The notes beneath the pieces are model-generated. The model was given only the letters and a program-made list of their open reading frames with translations. It had not been told where the DNA came from and did not search any database. Positions 3,945 to 42,369 of a DNA stretch of 64,000 bases are shown here, piece after piece. The position numbers were made by a program, and so were the translations under genes. Where the stretch lies: positions 186,001 to 250,000 of the forward strand of contig NZ_OBQI01000002.1 of assembly GCF_900221005.1 (NCBI RefSeq). The letters run 5' to 3'. This stretch comes from Blastococcus aggregatus. GTDB lineage: Bacteria; Actinomycetota; Actinomycetes; Mycobacteriales; Geodermatophilaceae. Within the stretch, counting starts at the first letter, position 1. Every line of letters begins with the position of its first letter.

Positions 3945-4646
3945 GTGGGACAGCCTAACCCCGTTGCGGTTCTGGACAAAGCGGTCGCGATCCTCCGAGC
4001 CGTCGCCGACGAGCCGGCGACCCTCGCCGAGCTCGTGGCGCGCACCGGTCTGCCGCGCGCCACGGCGCACCGGCTGGCCGTCGCGCTCGAGGGTCACCGC
4101 CTGGTCCGGCGCACCGACACCGGCACCTGGGCGCCCGGTCCGGCGCTGGCCGAGCTCGGCCGCGGCTCGGCCGACCTCGGCGACGTCGCCGCCCGGCACC
4201 TGGTGGCCCTGCGCGACGTGACCGGCGAGAGCGCCCAGTTCTACGTCCGCGACGGCGCCAGCCGGGTCTGCGTCGCCGCAGCCGAGCGCACCAGCGGCCT
4301 GCGCGACACCGTCCCGGTCGGCGCACGCCTGCCCATGACCGCGGGATCCGCCGCGCACGCGCTGCTGGCGTTCACCCCGGCCGACGAGGTCACCCGCCTG
4401 CTCCCCTCGGCGAGCTTCACCGCCCGCACGCTGCTCGACGTGCGCCGCCGCGGCTGGGCGCACAGCATCGCCGAGCGCGAGCCGGGCGTCGCCTCGCTGT
4501 CCGCACCGGTGCGGGACGGCTACGGAGCCGTGCTCGGCGCGGTCTCCATCTCCGGCCCGGTCGAGCGGCTCGGCCGCCGGCCGGCCCCCGAGGTGGTCGG
4601 CGCGGTTCTGGACGCGGCGGCCGCGATCGCCCGCGCCGCGCGCTGA
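3945..4646 (+). CDS. IclR-family regulator divergent from leuCD
   Basis: An IclR-type transcription factor of 233 residues. The N-terminal winged helix-turn-helix spans about residues 5-65 (AVLDKAVAILRAVADEP, then LAELVARTGLPRATAHRLAV). The C-terminal effector-binding domain includes LRDTVPVGARLPMTAGSAAH and AEREPGVASLSAPVRDGYG. It is divergent from leuC, the position of Rv2989 in M. tuberculosis and of LtbR- and NdgR-type regulators of leucine genes in other actinobacteria, so leuCD control is the likely role. The start is uncertain: the GTG at 3945 gives a normal N-terminus (GQPNPVAVLDK) but has only GGTGAGA 16 bases upstream, and a GTG at 3924 is also in frame. The latter would put translation inside the putative operator. 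Confidence 0.88.
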   Translation: MGQPNPVAVLDKAVAILRAVADEPATLAELVARTGLPRATAHRLAVALEGHRLVRRTDTGTWAPGPALAELGRGSADLGDVAARHLVALRDVTGESAQFYVRDGASRVCVAAAERTSGLRDTVPVGARLPMTAGSAAHALLAFTPADEVTRLLPSASFTARTLLDVRRRGWAHSIAEREPGVASLSAPVRDGYGAVLGAVSISGPVERLGRRPAPEVVGAVLDAAAAIARAAR

Positions 4647-4654
4647 CGTCTCGG

Positions 4655-5152
4655 TCAGGCTGCTGCGGGGCGGCCCCATCGGTTCTCGTGGGCCTTGCCG
4701 TCGAGGTCCTGGAAGCGGACCACGGCCACCATGTCCCGCAGGCCCTCGCGGTCGGCGTCGGCAAAACGGAGAGTCCGCCACCATTCGCGGACGTTGGCGC
4801 CGGCGACCACGGGCGTGTCCAGGCGGAACGACGTCGTCGGAGGCCGAACGGCGCCGTCGTTGTCCACGAGCTGCACCGGTATCGGCACGCTGACCTCCAC
4901 CTCGACATGGGTCACCGGGAGTCGCCCCGGGTTGACCAGCGCGAACACGTAGTGCGACTGGGCCACGCCGTCCACCACCGGGTCCGGCGCCTGTCGCAGC
5001 CGCCACTCGACGCTGACACCCGCGAGCTCGATCCGCCGGTCACGCTGCTGGAGGGCACGGAACTCACGCAGCTGGACGGCCGCGAAGCCGACCGCCCCCG
5101 TGGTGGCCAGGCCCGACATCCACGTCGCCACATCGCCCCAGTCAACGGCCAC
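4655..5152 (-). CDS. Membrane-anchored protein of unknown function, last gene of RelA/ROK operon
   Basis: I do not recognise this 165-residue protein. The N-terminus has one probable membrane segment (about residues 11-28, WMSGLATTGAVGFAAVQL), followed by a short charged stretch (REFRALQQRDRR) and a domain of alternating hydrophobic residues that looks beta-rich, perhaps immunoglobulin-like. The likely topology is a short N-terminal anchor with one soluble domain. The GTG start at 5152 has GGAGGAGGGG upstream and overlaps the end of the ROK glucokinase gene by 11 bases. It is therefore the fourth and last gene of an overlapping leftward operon (7910 to 4655), and it converges with the IclR gene nine bases away. 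Confidence 0.7.
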   Translation of the reverse strand: MAVDWGDVATWMSGLATTGAVGFAAVQLREFRALQQRDRRIELAGVSVEWRLRQAPDPVVDGVAQSHYVFALVNPGRLPVTHVEVEVSVPIPVQLVDNDGAVRPPTTSFRLDTPVVAGANVREWWRTLRFADADREGLRDMVAVVRFQDLDGKAHENRWGRPAAA

Positions 5153-6089
5153 GGGCCGGCCCCTCCTCCGCGTGACGCCGGGCCAGGTCCCCGGCGCCGA
5201 TGACGCCGGCAGCGCTGCCGAGAGCGGCGAGTTCGACGCGGGCGGGAGTGCGATGCAGCTGTCTCGGCGTCAGAGCCGCCTCGTAGGCCTCGCGCACGGG
5301 ATCGAGCAGCAGTGCCCCCGCGTCGGCGACCCCACCACCGATGACGTACAGCTCTGGGTCCAGCGCCGCGCCGAGCACTGCCATCCCCCGTCCCAAGGCC
5401 GTTCCCACGGTGCCGAAAGCGGCCCGTGCGCTCTGATCGCCGTTCTCGGCCGCCTCGGTCACTGCGCGACCGGAGACGGCGGCGTCAGGCCCTGCGCCTT
5501 GATGGGCCAGGTAGGCGCGCACGAGTGCTGCTCCGCTGACGTACTGCTCCCAGCAGCCGACGCCGCCGCACCCGCACGGCAGACCATCCGGGACCAGCGC
5601 CATGTGGCCGTACTCGGCGGCGAACCCGCCGAACCCCCGGTGCAACCGCCCATCGATGACCAGTCCCCCGCCGAGGCCAGTGCCCACCGTCAGGCAGACC
5701 GTTGTGGTCGCCCCCTGTCCGACGCCGTGGACCGCTTCGCCCCAGGCGGCGCAGTTCGCGTCGTTCTCGACGACCACCGGCCGGTCCAGTCGCGACTCAA
5801 CGGCACCGGCCAGGTCACCTGGCAGCCAGCCGTCGATGTTCGGCGAGAAGACGAGGGATCGACGGTCGGCCCGCACGAAGCCCGCGACGCTGAGCCCGAC
5901 GGCGACCACATCCCCGGTAGCCAGAAGCGGCTCGACCACGGCGACGATCGCGTCGTCGACCCCAGGGCCGGGCGGTGTCGGCACCCGGGTCAGCTCCCCG
6001 ATCAGCCCGTCGGGTCCTACGACCCCCGCTGCGATCTTGGTGCCTCCGACGTCGACGCCGATCGCTCGCGTGCCCCCGCCGGGACTCAC
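5142..6089 (-). CDS. glk: ROK-family glucokinase
   Basis: A sugar kinase of the ROK family, very probably an ATP-dependent glucokinase forming glucose 6-phosphate in the cytoplasm. The 315 residues match actinobacterial Glk in length. Visible motifs are the phosphate loop IGVDVGGTKIAAGVV, the catalytic ENDANCAAWGE, TVGTGLGGGLVI, the sugar-binding EYGHM and the zinc cluster CGCGGVGCWEQYVSG. I use the GTG at 6089, which overlaps the stop of the upstream ROK gene as GTGA, the usual sign of translational coupling; longer frames upstream read through that neighbour. It is the third gene of the RelA/ROK operon. Sugar specificity is inferred from family likeness. Confidence 0.9.
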   Translation of the reverse strand: MSPGGGTRAIGVDVGGTKIAAGVVGPDGLIGELTRVPTPPGPGVDDAIVAVVEPLLATGDVVAVGLSVAGFVRADRRSLVFSPNIDGWLPGDLAGAVESRLDRPVVVENDANCAAWGEAVHGVGQGATTTVCLTVGTGLGGGLVIDGRLHRGFGGFAAEYGHMALVPDGLPCGCGGVGCWEQYVSGAALVRAYLAHQGAGPDAAVSGRAVTEAAENGDQSARAAFGTVGTALGRGMAVLGAALDPELYVIGGGVADAGALLLDPVREAYEAALTPRQLHRTPARVELAALGSAAGVIGAGDLARRHAEEGPARGR

Positions 6090-7087
6090 GCCGACCGAGC
6101 CGGGACGCGCTCCTCGTGGACCGCCCGCTGCAGGAGGATCGCCGCGCCGGCTGCCGCCATCGGCAGATCCAGCCGGTCCACGACAACAGCGCAGTCGCGG
6201 GCCATCGAGCTGAACGAGTTGGTCTGCATGGCCTCTCGCACCCCCGTCATGAACAGCTCGCTGCATCGCGGTCCGGACCCGTCCCCGTTGCCTACCAGTT
6301 CAGCGGGTCCGCCGAGCACGATCATCTTCGGGTTCAGCAGGTTGAGGGCCGTCGCCAGCCCTTGGCCTAGGTAGCGGCCACTGCGACGGAACACCCGCGC
6401 TGCACGATCACCGTGCGGGCCGTCGAGCAGGGCCGCTGCGTCTGCGAAACCGCGCGAGCGGCTCACTCCGCCCCAGTTCATGTCGCGGTCGAAGTTGGTC
6501 ACCGCCAGCATCGCCTCCAGGCAACCGCGGTTGCCACATCGGCAGAGGGGCCCTTCCGGCTGGACGACGATGTGCCCGAACTCGCCTGCACCTCCGGTCG
6601 CCCCGCGGACGAGTTGCCCCTGCGCGACGATGGCGCAACCGAGGCCCTGGACGTCGGGGGCGAGGTAGACCACGACGACGTCGTCCACGCCGGCGGCCAC
6701 GCCGACCTGCTGTTCGTATGCACACATGCAGTTCACGTCGTTCTCGGCGACGGCGGGCAGCCCCGAGGCCTCGGTGAGTAGGTCGGCGACCGGAACGTCG
6801 GTCCAGTCGTAGCCGGGTTGCAGGAGCCCGGGGGCGACGACGACCCGCCGGCCGTCGTCCGAGATGTGGCCCCCGATGGACAGCCCCACGCCCGCGAGGC
6901 GACCCACGCGTTTCTCCGCCTCCACCAGCGCCTGACCGATCACGTCCAGGGCCCCCTCGGGATCAGGGACGGTGACCACCTGCTCCTGCAGGAAGACGGG
7001 CTCGGGGTCGGAGTCCTCCCGCACCGTGACGATCATCCGGCCGGACGCCAGCGAAACCCCGGCGGCCCGTGTCGGCTCGTCAGGCAT
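6086..7087 (-). CDS. ROK-family protein with degenerate phosphate loop
   Basis: A 333-residue ROK-superfamily protein. It keeps the actin-like ATPase fold signatures: GVGLSIGGHI, PAVAENDVN (in place of the usual NDAN), GAGEFGHIVV and the zinc cluster CRCGNRGCLE. The N-terminal D-x-G-G-T phosphate loop is missing; the corresponding stretch is GVSLASGRMIVTV. It also has no N-terminal DNA-binding helix-turn-helix, so it is not a complete NagC/XylR-type repressor. It may be a sugar sensor, a regulatory partner of the adjacent glucokinase or an inactive kinase; these are inferences. It overlaps the upstream RelA/SpoT-fold gene by eight bases and the downstream glucokinase by four, so the proteins are probably made together. 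Confidence 0.82.
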   Translation of the reverse strand: MPDEPTRAAGVSLASGRMIVTVREDSDPEPVFLQEQVVTVPDPEGALDVIGQALVEAEKRVGRLAGVGLSIGGHISDDGRRVVVAPGLLQPGYDWTDVPVADLLTEASGLPAVAENDVNCMCAYEQQVGVAAGVDDVVVVYLAPDVQGLGCAIVAQGQLVRGATGGAGEFGHIVVQPEGPLCRCGNRGCLEAMLAVTNFDRDMNWGGVSRSRGFADAAALLDGPHGDRAARVFRRSGRYLGQGLATALNLLNPKMIVLGGPAELVGNGDGSGPRCSELFMTGVREAMQTNSFSSMARDCAVVVDRLDLPMAAAGAAILLQRAVHEERVPARSA

Positions 7088-7910
7088 CGGGCGCCCGCCC
7101 GATGTCCTCGCGGACCCGCATGATCATCCCCTCGAGGTAGTGGAGCATGTGGCCCAGGTAGTACGGCGTGAACTCCGGCGACTGATAGTTCCACTGCCAC
7201 TTCTGGTCGGGATCCTGCTTCTCTTCTCGCCGCTTCTCGAAGTACCCGTGCGTGAGCGAGCCGATGGTCTCCTGCAGCTCGGTCGTCAGCTGGATCTCGA
7301 TCTTGGAGAACCGCTCCTCCTCGTCCTCGAAGTTGAGCGTCTGCACGCGGAAGTCCTGGCGCACGGTCACGTGCATGGCGTAATACCCGTAGTCCTGCGC
7401 GTGGGTCCAGACCTCCACGTCCGCGCCCACCTCGCCGCCCAGCGACGTCATGTGGTCGGCGAGTTCCTGCACGCCGTCGAGATACCGGACGACGATGCGA
7501 CAGCGGACGACATCCCACAGACCCTCGAACCAGCAGTCCGGCGACAGCCAGCCATCGGCCGGTGGAGCGGGCCAGTTGGGGTTGTTGTGGACGTTGGCCC
7601 GCCACGTCTTGCTGAGGAAGGACTCCCAGGGCTTGAGCTCGAGCTTGATCTCCGGCGGGGCACCGAACAGTGGCACGCCCTTGCGGTCCTCGTAGTCGAG
7701 CGACCAGTCACGCAGACGGTTCGACAGCTGCAGGAAGAACTTCGACTCCTCGAAGGCCTTCTGCAGATCCCGTTGCTGCTGGAGGTAACGCCCACGTCGC
7801 AGCTCCCGGCGATCACCCGTCCACACCCGAGCCAGCCACTCCTCATAGGACGACCGGTCCGGCTTCTCCCAGGGCTCCGTCGCGTGCCCCGCGGCGAGGT
7901 CGAACTGCAC
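7080..7910 (-). CDS. RelA/SpoT-fold nucleotidyltransferase-like protein, altered active site
   Basis: A 276-residue protein resembling the synthetase domain of RelA/SpoT and small alarmone synthetases, without the HD hydrolase, TGS or ACT domains of long Rel proteins. Matches by eye are ELKPWESFLSK (91-101) to the R-x-K-x3-S-x3-K motif, DVVRCRIVVRY (133-143) to the D-x-x-G-x-R strand, GYYAMHV (175-181) to GYR-x-IH, EIQLTT (205-210) to EIQIRT, and SLTHGYFEKRR after it. Lys93, Ser97, Lys101, Asp133, Tyr176, His180, Glu205 and Gln207 are kept, but Arg is replaced by Glu91, Tyr177 and Thr209. The GTG start has GGAGG upstream. First gene of the four-gene operon. A sample at 7141-7260 is 60% G+C, against about 71% in a sample of the neighbouring gene. 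It could be an alarmone synthetase, a toxic synthetase of the ToxSAS type, or something else. Confidence 0.72.
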   Translation of the reverse strand: MQFDLAAGHATEPWEKPDRSSYEEWLARVWTGDRRELRRGRYLQQQRDLQKAFEESKFFLQLSNRLRDWSLDYEDRKGVPLFGAPPEIKLELKPWESFLSKTWRANVHNNPNWPAPPADGWLSPDCWFEGLWDVVRCRIVVRYLDGVQELADHMTSLGGEVGADVEVWTHAQDYGYYAMHVTVRQDFRVQTLNFEDEEERFSKIEIQLTTELQETIGSLTHGYFEKRREEKQDPDQKWQWNYQSPEFTPYYLGHMLHYLEGMIMRVREDIGRAPDA

Positions 7911-8065
7911 GGGTCCTCCAGTGTCCGGGCTGTGGAGGGCACGGTAGCGGCCGGACGCAAGCGGGTCACGTCGCAGAACTGCGGACCCGGGCGGAGAGCA
8001 GGTCGCGTCTAGGTTGTGCCCTGGCTCACTCGCCCACCAGCCGACGGATGACGAGATCGGACACC

Positions 8066-10513
8066 ATGACGCACGCAGCCGCCCGGAACACCCGGCTGAT
8101 CCAGGCCCTCGCCGCGCTGTCTCTCGAGGAGAAGGTCCAGCTGCTCACCGGCCGCGACTTCTGGACCACCTGGCCGATGGAGTCGATCGGCCTGCGCCGC
8201 ATCCTGGTGTCCGACGGCCCCTCCGGCGTCCGGGGCGAGGTCTGGGACGAGCGGGACCCCTCGCTCAACCTGCCCTCGGCCACAGCCCTGGCGTCCTCCT
8301 GGGATCCGGGGATCGCCCGTCGCTACGGCGCCGCGGCCGCGGTCGAGGCCCGCCGCAAGGGGGTCGACGTCGTCCTCGGGCCGACGATCAACCTGCACCG
8401 CTCGCCACTGGGTGGCCGGCACTTCGAGTGCTTCAGCGAGGACCCGGTGCTCACCGCCGAGCTTGCCGCCGCCTACGTCTCCGGTGTCCAGGACAACGGC
8501 GTCGGCGCGACGCCGAAGCACTACATCGCCAACGACTTCGAGACCGACCGCTTCACCGTGGACGTCCGGGCCGACGACCGGACCCTGCGCGAGCTGTACC
8601 TGCTGGCGTTCGAGAAGGCGGTCGTCGAGGCGCGGGCCTGGCTGGTCATGAGCTCCTACAACTCGATCAACGGCGCCACGGCCAGCGAGAACGAGCTGCT
8701 GGAGACGCCGCTGAACAGCCAGTGGGGTTTCGACGGCGTCGTCATCAGCGACTGGACCGGCGTCCGGAGCCTGGAGAGCGCGAAGGCCTCGCAGGACCTG
8801 GTCATGCCCGGCCCGCAGGGCCCCTGGGGCGAGGCGCTGGTCGCGGCGGTCCGCGCCGGGGAGATCGACGAGGCGACGGTCGACCGCAAGGTGCTGCGCA
8901 TCCTCCGGCTGGCCGAGCGGGTCGGGGCGCTCTCCGGCTCGGAACCGGCCGAGCCGGTCCTGGTCGAGGACGGCCCGGCGCTGGCCCGCGAGGCCGCCGC
9001 GGAGGGCATCGTGCTGCTGGAGAACCGGGGAGAGCTGCCGTGGGCCGCCTCCGCCCTGCGCTCGGTCGCCGTGATCGGCAACAACGCCTCGGCCGCACGG
9101 ACCCAGGGCGGTGGCAGCGCGACCGTCGTCCCGGAGTACACCGTGTCCCCGCTGGAGGGCCTGCGCCGCGCCCTGCCCGGCGTGGACGTGCGGTACTCGG
9201 TCGGCGCGGTGGTCCAGGACGGCGTCGTGGAGCTCCCGCTGCGCGATCTGACCAACCCCTCCACCGGCGAGCCGGGCCTGCACGCGCGCTTCCTCGCCGA
9301 GGACGGCGCGGAGCTGCTCGCCGAGGACCGCCGCTCCAGCAACCTCGTCTACTTCGGCAGCGACGTGCCGATCGAGGACGCCGCCGAGTTCGAACTCACC
9401 ACCCGGTTCACCCCCTCGGAGAGCGGCGTCGTCCGCCTCGGCGTCGCCCTCGTCGGCACCGCGAAGCTGTACGTCGACGACGAACTGCTGCTCGACGAGC
9501 GGCTGCGCCCTAGCCCGGAGGCCGTCGGGGCCGCCTTCACCAACCCGCCCACGGCGTCGGCGCCGGTGGAGCTCACCGCGGGCACGCCGGTCGACCTGCG
9601 GCTGGTGTACGACCTGCGCCGGCGGCGCGGCTTCAACGCCCGCGCGATGTCGCTGCGCCTGGGCACCGAGCCGGCCGACGTCGTCGCCGACGCACTGATC
9701 GCCGAGGCCGCCCGCGCCGCCGCGGACGCCGACGTCGCGCTGGTCGTCGTCGGTACCAACTCCCTCGTCGAGTCCGAGGGCTACGACCGGACGACGCTGG
9801 CCCTGCCGGGGCGGCAGGACGACCTGGTCCGCGCCGTCGTCGCCGCGAACCCGCGCACCGTGGTGCTGGTGAACTCCGGCGCGCCGGTGCTGCTGCCGTG
9901 GCGGGACGACGTCGCGGGCCTGCTGCTCGGCTGGTTCGGCGGGCAGGAGTTCGGCAACGCCGTCGCCGACGTCCTCCTCGGTGCGACCGAGCCCGGCGGG
10001 CGGCTGCCGACGACGTGGCCGGACGCGGAGGCCGACGTGCCGGTGCTCTCCTGCACCCCGGTCGACGGGGCGCTGGAGTACGCCGAGGGCATCCACGTCG
10101 GCTACCGGGCCTGGCTGAAGCAGGAGACGCCGCCGGCCTACTGGTTCGGCGCCGGCCAGGGCTACACCCGGATCGACCTCACCGGCGTCGACGCACCCGG
10201 GAGCGCCCGCGGAGGCGAGATCGTGACGGTGACCGTGGAGGTGGCCAACCGCGGCGACCGCGCCGGCAAGCAGGTGGTGCAGGTCTACGCCGAGCGGCCC
10301 GACTCCGCCGTCGACCGGCCGGTGCGCTGGCTGGTCGGCTCGACCCCGGTGCGCGTCCCCGCCGGGGAGTCGACCCGGGTGGAGGTGGCCGTCCACACCC
10401 GGTTGCTGGCGTACTGGGCGGACGGCTGGCAGTACGAGCCCGGGGCCTACCGGCTGCGGGCCGGCACGACCGCGGTCGACCTCCCGCTGGAGACGACGCT
10501 GACGCTGGGCTGA
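8066..10513 (+). CDS. bglX: Beta-glucosidase, glycoside hydrolase family 3 with PA14 insert
   Basis: A GH3 glycosidase of 815 residues that should release glucose from beta-glucosides. In order: the GH3 N-terminal barrel (residues 10-300) with the nucleophile region DGVVISDWTG and substrate-side KHYIANDFETDR; the GH3 C-terminal domain; an inserted PA14 domain (about 385-520, LHARFLAEDG through KLYVDDELLLDE); the acid/base loop ESEGYDRTTLALPGRQ; and a C-terminal fibronectin-III-like domain. No signal peptide is visible, so it probably acts inside the cell. ATGs at 8048 and 8066 are both possible; neither has a strong ribosome site, and I chose 8066. It is divergent from the RelA-like gene. The symbol is by family likeness only. 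Confidence 0.92.
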   Translation: MTHAAARNTRLIQALAALSLEEKVQLLTGRDFWTTWPMESIGLRRILVSDGPSGVRGEVWDERDPSLNLPSATALASSWDPGIARRYGAAAAVEARRKGVDVVLGPTINLHRSPLGGRHFECFSEDPVLTAELAAAYVSGVQDNGVGATPKHYIANDFETDRFTVDVRADDRTLRELYLLAFEKAVVEARAWLVMSSYNSINGATASENELLETPLNSQWGFDGVVISDWTGVRSLESAKASQDLVMPGPQGPWGEALVAAVRAGEIDEATVDRKVLRILRLAERVGALSGSEPAEPVLVEDGPALAREAAAEGIVLLENRGELPWAASALRSVAVIGNNASAARTQGGGSATVVPEYTVSPLEGLRRALPGVDVRYSVGAVVQDGVVELPLRDLTNPSTGEPGLHARFLAEDGAELLAEDRRSSNLVYFGSDVPIEDAAEFELTTRFTPSESGVVRLGVALVGTAKLYVDDELLLDERLRPSPEAVGAAFTNPPTASAPVELTAGTPVDLRLVYDLRRRRGFNARAMSLRLGTEPADVVADALIAEAARAAADADVALVVVGTNSLVESEGYDRTTLALPGRQDDLVRAVVAANPRTVVLVNSGAPVLLPWRDDVAGLLLGWFGGQEFGNAVADVLLGATEPGGRLPTTWPDAEADVPVLSCTPVDGALEYAEGIHVGYRAWLKQETPPAYWFGAGQGYTRIDLTGVDAPGSARGGEIVTVTVEVANRGDRAGKQVVQVYAERPDSAVDRPVRWLVGSTPVRVPAGESTRVEVAVHTRLLAYWADGWQYEPGAYRLRAGTTAVDLPLETTLTLG

Positions 10514-10525
10514 GGTCCAGGGACG

Positions 10526-10560
10526 ACGAGGGCCCCCGACCGATGGTCGGGGGCCCTCGT
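10526..10560. terminator. Bidirectional terminator, beta-glucosidase / tRNA-Glu
   Basis: A perfect 16-base inverted repeat (ACGAGGGCCCCCGACC, 10526-10541, and its complement 10545-10560) around a GAT loop. It follows the beta-glucosidase stop on the plus strand and the 3' end of tRNA-Glu copy 2 on the minus strand, so it can serve both. Confidence 0.85.
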
Positions 10561-10566
10561 TCGTTG

Positions 10567-37588: not shown

Positions 37589-39111
37589 GCGGCACTCCCG
37601 GCCGGGCGGGCGGCGAGCTGGTCGAGGAAGCGGGAGCCGCGAGCGGCGTCCTGGGCGGCCTCGAGCGCGGCGGCGACCTTGTAGCAGCGGTCGTCGGCCA
37701 GCGCCGGCGCCATGATCTGGAAGCCGACCGGCAGCCCCTCGGACAGCCCGCAGGGCACCGAGATGGCGGGCACCCCGGCGAGGCTGGCCGGCAGGGTGCA
37801 GAGGTCGGCGGCGTACATGGCGATCGGGTCGTCCACGCGGGCGCCGACCTCCCAGGCGACGGTGGGGCTGGTCGGGCTGACCAGCACGTCCACGTCGTCC
37901 CACGCGCGGGTGAAGTCGCGGGTGATCAGCGTGCGGACCTTCTGCGCCTGCCCGTAGTAGGCGTCGTAGTAGCCGCTGGAGAGCGCGTACGTGCCGAGGA
38001 TGATCCGGCGCTTCACCTCGGGCCCGAAGCCCTGCTCGCGGGTGAGCGCCATGACCTCGTCGAGGTCGCGGTCGCCGTCGTCGCCGACGCGCAGCCCGTA
38101 CCGGACGCCGTCGAAGCGGGCGAGGTTGGACGACGCCTCGCTCGGGGCGATCAGGTAGTAGGCCGGCAGCGCGAGATCGAAGGCCGGGCAGGAGACCGGG
38201 CGGACCTCGGCACCGAGGCTCTCCAGCAGGGCCACCGTCTCGGCGAACCGGGCGAGCACGCCCTCGTCGTAGCCGTCGGTGTGCCCGTCACCGCCGAGCT
38301 CGGTGACGACGCCGACCCGGAGGCCGGCGAGGTCGCCCTCGGCGCCGCGGCGCGCGGCCTCGGCGAGCACCGGGACCGGGGAGTCGATGGAGGTGGAGTC
38401 CAGCGGGTCGTGCCCGGCGATCGCCTCGTGCAGCAGCGCCGCGTCGAGGACCGTGCGGGTCATCGGCCCCGCCTGGTCGAGGCTCGAGGAGAAGGCGATG
38501 AGGCCGTAGCGGGAGACCGAGCCGTAGGTGGGCTTGTGCCCGACCAGGCCGGTGACGGCGGCCGGCTGGCGGATCGAGCCGCCGGTGTCGGTGCCGATCG
38601 CCCACGGGGCGAGGCCCCCGGCCACGGCCGCCGAGGAGCCGCCCGACGAGCCGCCCGGGATGCGGTCGTGGTCCCAGGGGTTGCGGGTGACGCGGTAGGC
38701 GGAGTTCTCGGTGGACGAGCCCATCGCGAACTCGTCCATGTTGGTCTTGCCGAGCAGGACCGTGCCGGCGTTCTTGAGCCGGGCGGCCAGCGTCGCGTCG
38801 TACGGCGGGCGCCAGCCCTCGAGGATCTTCGAGCCGCTCGTCGTCGGCACGCCCTCGGTGACGACGACGTCCTTGAGCGCCAGCGGGATGCCGGCCAGCG
38901 GGCCGGTGGCGGTGCCGCCGGCGCGGGCGGCGTCGACCTGCTCCGCGGTGCGCAGCGCGGCCTCGCCGTCGACGTGCAGGTAGGCCCCGAGCGCGTCGTC
39001 CTCGGCCGCGATGCGGTCCAGGTAGGCGCGGGTCACCTCGACGGCGGTGACCTCACCGGCGGTGAGCAGCCGGCCGAGCTCGGCGGCGTCCGTACTGGTC
39101 AGGTCGCTCAT
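37585..39111 (-). CDS. gatA: Glu-tRNA(Gln) amidotransferase, subunit A
   Basis: Amidase subunit releasing ammonia from glutamine. The 508 residues carry the amidase signature: catalytic Lys in [13 protein letters not shown], and the Ser-cisSer part in [14 protein letters not shown] and [16 protein letters not shown]. It overlaps gatC by four bases (ATGA) and the next small gene by four. With gltX and tRNA-Gln in the same window it completes the indirect route to Gln-tRNA(Gln). Confidence 0.97.
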
Positions 39112-40365: not shown

Positions 40366-42369
40366 ACACATGGACGTGACGGCGGAGACGAGGGCCGCCC
40401 CCTCTCCGACCGTCGGGTGGGCTGAGGGCCCGCTCGGAATCGCCCAGGCGGCGGCCCGAGAGATCGGCCGGCAGACCGCGCTCCGCGCTCGGGCGGTGGC
40501 CGCCTTCGCCGCGACGCGGCCCGCGTCGGACGACCGGCCTCCCGGAACGCCCGGCGCCATGAGCGCCGACCGGCGGGCGTCCCGGCCGGAGGTGCTGGCG
40601 GGCGTCAGCGAGTGGGCGGCGCAGGAGCTGGTGATCGCGATGTCGATCACCCAGGTCGCCGCCGAGAACCTGCTGCAACGTTCGCTCACGCTGGTGCACC
40701 GGCTGCCGCGCACGCTGGTGGCGCTGGAGTCCGGGCTGATCCACGACGGGCACCTCTGGCACCTGCTGGACAAGGTCGCGCCGATCGCCGACGCGGCGAT
40801 CCGCGCCCGGGTGGAGCGGGGAGTGCTGGACTGGGTGGCCGGCCGGTCGGTCACCACCCCGGCACAGCTGGGCGCGAAGGCTCGGCGGTCGGTGCTCAAG
40901 CACGACGCGGCCGCCGCAGCCCAGCGGTTGGCGAGAGCGCTGCGCGAACGCGGCGTCTCCGTCCGGTCCGACCGCCGAGAGGGCATGGCCGTCTTCGACG
41001 CCCTGCTGACCGTTCCCGAGGCGCATGCCTTGCTGGACGTCCTGGGGCAGTACGCCGACGCGATCGACGAACCGGGCGACACCCGTACCCGCGGCCAGAA
41101 GATGGCCGACTGCCTGCTCGATCTGGTGCTCCGACCCGGCGAGCAGGACGGCCCGCCGGTGCAGGCACGGCTGACCCTGGTGGCCGGGGTGGCGACGCTG
41201 CTAGGGGGTGACCAGCCCGGAGAGATCGACGGCGAACCGGTGCCGGCGGAGCTGGTGCGCGCGCTGGCACGCGCCCTGGGCCTCCTGCCCGAGGTGAGGC
41301 CGGAGGCGCCCGGCTCCTCCCCCGATCCCGACCTGCGGCCGGACGAGCCCCCGGCCGGGGCGTGGACCGACGCGGTGCGCGCGGCCGACGAACGGTGGTG
41401 GGCCGCGATCGAGGAGCGGGCACTGCGGGGCGAGTGGGGCGGTGCGGAGGATCCCCGCTCGACGTGCTCGAGCGCTGGTGGGCCGAGGAGCCGTTCTGGG
41501 CCGGATCGGCATCGCCCGAGGCCGGGCCGTCTCCCGGTCCCCACCCAGGATCTCCGTCCGACGCCGAGCCACGACCGCAGTCGCAGCACGACCGCGTCAC
41601 ACCTCCCGCGCGCTCCGGCGAGGCCCCCGATCGTGACCCCGCCGCCGGCGAGTGGGCGACGGCCGATCGAGCGCTCGACCGGGCCGGTGCCGCGCTGCTG
41701 GACCTCCAGCGAACAGTGGGTGCCGCGGGGCGGGCGGTCTCCGCCGCTGGACGCGCCGCGGCGGACGACGAGGACGCCTGGGAGGACAGCGCGGCCGGCC
41801 GGATGACCCGGGCCCGGGGGGCGCTCGACGCGCTCCTCGAGGGGACCGCCCGTCAGCGGGAGGAACTGGCCGACCTGTTGGGGCGCACCGCCGGTGGTGG
41901 GCTGCTCGACCGGCCGCGCATCGCGATCGTCGACGAGCTCACCGGCGCGCTGCTCGCACTGACCGACAGCACGGAACTGCGCCGGTACGCCACCTGCGGT
42001 GCGGCCGCCTGTCGCCGGCATCCGGCGGGCTGCGGCCACGACCTCGGCGACCGCCCGGGCCTCGGTCCTCCGCCCCCGAGCGACGGCTACCGACCCGGTG
42101 CGGCGCTCGACCGGTACGTCCGTGCCCGCGACCGTCGCTGCCGTCAGCCCGGCTGCCGCCGGCGGGTGCCGCTGGGAGGCGAGCTCGACCACGACCGGCC
42201 CTGGCCCGACGGGCCGACCAGCGCGGGCAACCTCGCCGGCTACTGCACCGGGCACCACCGCGGCAAGCACCAGGCACCCGGATGGCAGCACTCCCTGGCG
42301 GAGGACGGCACGCTCACCGTCCTCACGCCGACGGGCCTGGTCGCGACGACCACGCCGCCCCCGTTCTGA
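40358..42369 (+). pseudogene. DUF222-HNH (13E12-type) nuclease gene split by a frameshift
   Basis: Two frames together make one DUF222-HNH protein of about 670 residues. From the ATG at 40358 the first frame encodes the helical DUF222 domain (LHDGHLWHLLDK-type region written IHDGHLWHLLDK, RSVTTPAQLGAKARR) and runs to EWGGAEDP at 41452. The natural continuation, PLDVLERWWAEEPFW, is in the -1 frame and ends with the HNH domain (RDRRCRQPGCRRRVPLGG, LDHDRPWPDG, YCTGHHRGKH) at 42369. The junction is a run of four C at 41453-41456; a fifth C would restore the frame. Unrepaired, the first frame stops at 41806 with no HNH domain. It may be a true mutation, a phase-variable tract, or a sequencing error. 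A LexA-like box overlaps the start. Confidence 0.8.

Follow-up and report, generated by a model that had tools for sequence, protein, structure and literature searches.

In toxSAS toxin-antitoxin systems, enzymes of the RelA/SpoT fold give tRNA or (pp)pApp products, are held in check by antitoxins such as pZFD and Tis1 and, in the case of CapRel, are triggered by phage, according to the sections of four reports on which we draw (PMC11782079, PMC11559606, PMC9712102, PMC12691689). One of these enzymes, FaRel2, is described in part of one report as having a basic tRNA-binding surface (PMC11559606). Here we analyzed a stretch of 64,000 nucleotides from Blastococcus aggregatus (contig NZ_OBQI01000002.1, positions 186,001 to 250,000; hereafter the window), in which four neighboring minus-strand genes, designated A to D, bring a protein of predicted RelA/SpoT fold (A) together with two ROK proteins (B and C) and an orphan protein (D). 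The RelA/SpoT enzymes and the ROK proteins each form a well-known family, and the two are joined here. The parts are known and the combination is new, it comes from one genome, and no description of a RelA/SpoT and ROK pair as one unit was found, as judged by title, in the literature that we searched by full text. We tentatively propose that the genes may form a sugar-gated module, in which A would be controlled by a sugar-sensing B together with C.

Gene A resembles the toxSAS enzymes FaRel2, CapRel, PhRel and FaRel/Tas1 in its predicted fold and, as far as they could be matched, its catalytic residues; like theirs, it is an accessory gene gained by transfer and has its partner genes close by. 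Unlike them, it encodes an acidic protein, its partners are ROK proteins and none of them has a recognised antitoxin domain. Compared with RelP and RelQ, A falls under the Pfam cut-off, is 16% identical in structural alignment, has a glutamate in place of R78, and lies in an operon with ROK genes; it also has a longer N-terminus and a 17-residue insert, both seen when it was aligned with 12 viral-contig relatives. Many members of the exported alarmone synthetases of Streptomyces (SaEAS, 8vx3) carry a Sec signal peptide, whereas the best hydropathy window of A scores 0.67.

Gene A and the RelA/SpoT fold

Profile comparison, active-site residues and a model based on relatives agree in making A a putative, very divergent member of the RelA/SpoT fold. 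Against Pfam PF04607 (RelA_SpoT) it scored 19.3 bits (E=0.0015), under the curated cut-off of 27 bits. When HHalign was used with a profile built from 27 synthetases encoded by genomes of this phylum, residues 87-226 scored 47.2 (E 2.9e-6, probability 88%). The highest score among 150 shuffled versions of A was 25.6, and that among the 50 other predicted window genes with 120 or more amino acids was 25.1. A second profile, of 79 rows, gave a score of 42.4 (E 1.8e-5, probability 78%); none of 150 shuffles exceeded 22.4, and reversed A scored 19.9. In a tree with the 79 relatives, A sat on a terminal branch 6.0 changes per column long and joined no supported group; judged by its sequence, it marks a predicted lineage of the fold remote from all of the relatives compared.

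Residue conservation was assessed in the alignment with the 12 viral-contig relatives, and the matching to published positions is our own. Invariant columns include K93, S97, K101, D133, R138, G175, Y176, H180, E205, Q207 and H221 of A. The residues named in the portions of the source reports that we used are R78, K80, S84, K88, R91, D107, R112, Y151, E174 and H190 in SaRelP (PMC5794853) and R64, K66, S70, K74, R77, D90, R95, Y128, E145 and Q147 in FaRel2 (PMC11782079). Ten of 11 ATP, metal and G-loop positions are retained in A (K93, S97, K101, R104, D133, R138, Y176, E205, Q207 and H221), with R104 matched to RelP R91 by spacing only. The view in the initial annotation that this gene encodes a RelA/SpoT-type fold was supported by the profile comparison and the modeled fold, despite the sub-cut-off Pfam score.

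Other observations weigh against this assignment or against an active enzyme. The model of A made with distant RelA/SpoT relatives took the SYNTH fold (predicted local distance difference test, pLDDT, 61.2), but its input consisted of RelA/SpoT rows, which biases A toward that fold, and a single-sequence model (pLDDT 37.6) failed and was unused. Furthermore, E91 replaces the adenine-stacking arginine (RelP R78, FaRel2 R64), the arginine of the EVQIRT motif is T209 and the glycine of DxxGxR is R136. Because of these three changes, A could be weak or inactive.

The G-loop of A has Q and Y where a short RelA/SpoT protein from the same phylum (L007, KPSGYR) has lysine and arginine. We considered this as a mark of a new acceptor and rejected it, as the viral relatives also lack that lysine and arginine. 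The acidic character of A (34 K+R vs. 48 D+E) is not decisive, since the net charge of its relatives spans -19 to +23.

Other RelA/SpoT-type proteins were seen in the course of these comparisons. The genome that carries A has a second RelA_SpoT match above the Pfam cut-off (63 bits) at 603812-604186 of contig C6, within a predicted protein of 559 amino acids, and a strong match on contig C7. In two genomes, short synthetase-like proteins group with five viral-contig proteins (SH-aLRT 97), which suggests that they may be prophage-borne relatives.

The ROK pair and gene D

B and C both match Pfam ROK (E=8.4e-40 and E=1.6e-71, respectively) and are 29-30% identical to each other. In ROK proteins, separate conserved motifs serve sugar, zinc and phosphate or ATP binding. 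C carries the full set (DxGGTK, GTGLGGG, END, ExGH and CxCGxxGCxE), sharing all sugar, zinc and phosphate motifs with its nearest solved structure, the S. griseus glucokinase 3vgk (E 1.8e-73), and its motif content makes it a complete, working-looking, glucokinase-like ROK sugar kinase. However, it scores 226 bits against NCBIfam TIGR00744 (glucokinase), under the cut-off of 260 bits, and is an operon-mate of A and B. In B, both ATP/phosphate motifs are changed (DVGGTK to SLASGR and GTGLGGG to DVQGLGC) and the sugar and zinc motifs are retained (END, EFGH and CRCGNRGCLE). B is therefore likely a sugar-binding ROK pseudokinase, which, given the roles of these motifs in the family, we would expect to bind sugar and zinc without using ATP. 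Both the Pfam matches and the state of the motifs agree with the initial annotation, which had described a glucokinase and a ROK relative that looked kinase-dead.

With its ROK domain and retained sugar and zinc motifs, B resembles the ROK repressors NagC and Mlc. However, it differs from them in its two changed ATP motifs, in being translated after a RelA/SpoT-fold gene and in having no N-terminal DNA-binding region: Pfam found no helix-turn-helix there, and B aligns with C from the N-terminus, which leaves no room for one. Some match to B is held by 239 of 246 class genomes (query included), the two best others being 37% and 38% identical. Among 11 loci around its best class-genome matches, 10 encode proteins of 351-401 amino acids whose N-termini look regulator-like by eye, and the remaining one (L080) a protein of 307 amino acids; no match to A or D was found in these loci (13.5-14 kb each) at E up to 1. 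B also matches 880 plasmid and 39 phage records, and the one plasmid neighborhood examined is a sugar-transporter locus. It was not found in the genome_contigs collection by a peptide-pattern search, which reaches close relatives only.

Gene D had no Pfam, NCBIfam or PADLOC match, found only itself in 394 class genomes and matched nothing in plasmids or phages. It had been called a membrane protein, a description that was not confirmed: the uncharged stretch near its N-terminus has a best 19-residue Kyte-Doolittle mean of 1.32 (starting at residue 8), below the usual membrane threshold of ~1.6. An N-terminal membrane anchor is possible, though weak at best.

Operon layout, origin and insertion site

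We set the start sites of A to D from open reading frame limits and homology. With these starts, A and B overlap by 8 bases (7080-7087, given an ATG start of B at 7087), B and C by 4 (6086-6089, given a GTG start of C at 6089) and C and D by 11 (5142-5152, given a GTG start of D at 5152). The coordinates initially given for four overlapping minus-strand frames were thus reproduced (Table 1), with the overlaps conditional on the chosen starts; a codon-usage gene caller started B at 7036, left C uncalled and started D at 5119, in which case the overlap of 11 bases disappears. Overlaps are common in these genomes, at 97 of 435 same-strand neighbor pairs in the loci of 40 relatives and 9 of 31 elsewhere in the window. 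The run of three out of three (chance ~1% under independence) thus supports a single operon with coupled translation, yet is not extraordinary. Consensus promoters were not detected in the block. Two terminator-like sites inside genes (minus-strand stems 4792-4773 and 7755-7740) were attributed to chance, as 0.7 would be expected (standard deviation, sd, 0.9).

Table 1. Features of the block and its flanks (window positions).
Feature	Position	Strand	Length (amino acids)	Basis or remark
Gene A, putative RelA/SpoT-fold pyrophosphokinase, very divergent	7080..7910	-	276	Open reading frame and profile comparison
Gene B, ROK protein, likely sugar-binding pseudokinase	6086..7087	-	333	Pfam and motifs
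Gene C, predicted glucokinase-like ROK sugar kinase	5142..6089	-	315	Pfam and motifs
Gene D, orphan protein	4655..5152	-	165	Start possibly 5119
Foreign block, approximate extent	4645..8009			Similarity breaks vs. four close relatives
IclR-type regulator gene, flank	3945..4646	+		Conserved in relatives; name from sequence features
GH3-type glycosidase gene, flank, divergent from A	8048..10513	+		In 5/40 relatives' intervals; name from sequence features

Base composition was compared with that of 48 other predicted window genes, each of at least 120 amino acids. Third-position G+C is 0.899, 0.856, 0.820 and 0.880 in A, B, C and D, respectively, against a mean of 0.966 (sd 0.019) for these genes, which places B, C and D under all 48 genes and A under 47 of them. 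A also has the lowest total G+C of all (65.2% vs. a mean of 74.0%). The initial annotation had noticed, from a sample of the gene, a G+C below that of its neighbor, and positions 7101-7300 have 61%. Total G+C is 70.7-73.2% in B, C and D; for C and D it is ordinary, with 20 and 10 of the 48 genes lower, which counts against a foreign origin of the whole block. Elsewhere in the window, another predicted gene (41716-42369) has a low third-position G+C of 0.894.

We then considered the insertion site, taken as the interval (slot) from the IclR-type gene to tRNA-Glu, which corresponds to 4646-10566 in the window, in 40 chosen loci of the same family. The names galT, galK, SSS, GH3, IclR, leuC and gltX are used here on the strength of sequence features, rather than family searches, and are to be taken as presumptive. 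The slot holds galT-galK in 29 loci (accompanied in 24 by an SSS-type symporter), only the symporter and a small protein in six and neither in five, and a tblastn search (E up to 1e-6) found A, B, C or D in none of the 40. Of 23 genomes of the genus, 18 contain a match to galactokinase at E up to 1e-10, though in one of them (G434) it is only a 48% match elsewhere; this genome and four others have none. In comparison with four close relatives, similarity is lost at 4639-4644 for three and at 4665 for one, and restarts at 8010-8062. Given that slot contents vary and that similarity breaks off and restarts around it, the block of ~3.4 kb occupies a variable slot. Its gain by transfer is well supported by third-position G+C together with the slot comparison, and two earlier suggestions, that the genes were acquired and that they interrupt a conserved gene order, were both supported. 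No convincing pair of repeats flanks the block ends, and no integrase was seen among A to D.

Some of the 40 loci had features of their own. One slot (L126) is merely 87 bases long. In another (L025, 5393-11773), an extra block of several kb, encoding response-regulator-like and sensor-like proteins and with low codon scores, separates the gal operon from the IclR-type gene and is perhaps another transfer into the slot. In L124 the match to GH3 is split into two adjoining parts, possibly by a frameshift or sequencing error.

The GH3 gene beside the block might be read as a sign of sugar function, and we rejected this. A GH3 gene lies within the slot in five of the 40 family loci, and in three of these five the gal operon is flanked by the IclR-type gene and the GH3 gene and uses the strand that A to D occupy in this genome. 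The sugar context is therefore inherited, and is no evidence for a sugar signal acting on A.

The history of the slot nevertheless bears on a second explanation, namely that the block is a sugar-use operon with a passenger, in which B and C would act in taking up or phosphorylating sugar, with C providing an additional glucokinase, while D would be accessory and A inactive or drifted to another role. The sugar genes held by the slot in relatives, the complete kinase motifs of C, the loss in A of R78/R64 and other conserved positions, and its long end branch would all fit. However, the block has no transporter or sugar enzyme apart from B and C, and A has kept its catalytic K/S/K, D, R, Y, E, Q and H, which decay would not favor. 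We regard this explanation as rather improbable.

Conservation, defense and a possible joint function

The genome samples searched (family, order, class and phylum) overlap, so their counts are not additive. In 112 genomes of the family and 397 of the order, A had no match other than itself; in 396 phylum genomes it found itself, L007 (E 5.5e-4) and a locus (L008, E 9e-4) that we rejected as chance, its open reading frames not being RelA-like by eye. tblastn gave no match to A in plasmids or phages, the peptide-pattern search (again, close relatives only) confirmed none in viral_contigs or genome_contigs, and a search with an alignment of A and its viral relatives confirmed none among viral sequences. 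When ~1.5 kb around each of 33 loci of RelA/SpoT type was searched, B, C and D matched nothing at E up to 0.01, and the same held for 29 further loci at E up to 0.05. Three loci belong to both sets, giving 59 distinct loci, and no ROK gene lies near any of them.

No second example of A to D as a set was thus found, which is formally the outcome that the initial annotation had named as refuting its proposal, and their restriction to a single genome argues against a dedicated system. As A and D are almost without detectable homologues, this comparison does not discriminate, and a rare real system and a chance assembly cannot be separated by conservation. If chance brought them together, a RelA-like gene of divergent sequence and two accessory ROK genes would have met in a permissive slot, sharing a transcript and no joint function. 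The single genome, the variability of the slot and the frequency of overlapping genes in relatives are consistent with this, and the difference in total G+C between A and the other three genes may indicate that A had a separate source. We nonetheless find chance assembly somewhat doubtful, given that all four genes share an unusually low third-position G+C, run in the same direction and overlap at all three junctions.

A role in defense had also been suggested for the block and found no backing, as PADLOC recognised no specific family there. Its only matches were of A to PDC-S33 (E=6e-4) and of B to DpdC (E=0.012). The former is at superfamily level and was rejected as a defense label, since the model matches 135 of 148 class genomes and the rows listed are mostly frames of more than 700 amino acids; DpdC, like the weak matches to GBP, DNA_ligase_aden and sulfite_red_C, was taken as chance. 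The likeness of A to the toxSAS enzymes raises the alternative of a toxin-antitoxin or anti-phage unit of that type, in which A would inhibit translation or drain ATP once phage or stress releases it, and B or D would be an antitoxin of a new kind, with the ROK fold recruited as a phage or metabolite sensor. We consider this unlikely. Sequence-family searches with Pfam, NCBIfam and PADLOC found no pZFD, Tis1 or Panacea-type antitoxin adjoining A, and Pfam found no known toxSAS antitoxin domain in B, C or D, which also counts against control of A by its partners. In addition, A is acidic, in contrast to the basic tRNA-binding surface described in part for FaRel2 (PMC11559606), although charge is not decisive.

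The sugar-gated module that we tentatively propose would operate as follows. The acquired four-gene operon stands in place of the galactose operon kept by most relatives. A would probably be a competent ATP-dependent pyrophosphokinase that makes an alarmone-type nucleotide or modifies another acceptor and, when active, slows or stops growth. B, translated directly after A, would sense sugar and restrain or trigger A. C may determine the level of the signal, a sugar or its phosphate, or join B in mixed ROK oligomers, and D may act as a tether or a cap for the complex. Should B control A, an enzyme that stops growth would be gated directly by a protein that binds sugar. A stronger proposal would make the block a sugar-gated unit of growth control or immunity of a new kind, with a ROK pseudokinase and its active sister kinase directly controlling a RelA/SpoT-fold pyrophosphokinase of an undescribed lineage; this seems to us quite improbable.

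Apart from the block, ARAGORN predicted a tRNA-Thr (tgt) at 38499-38591 of the window; Rfam gives no such tRNA at its gathering score, and the prediction is possibly spurious.

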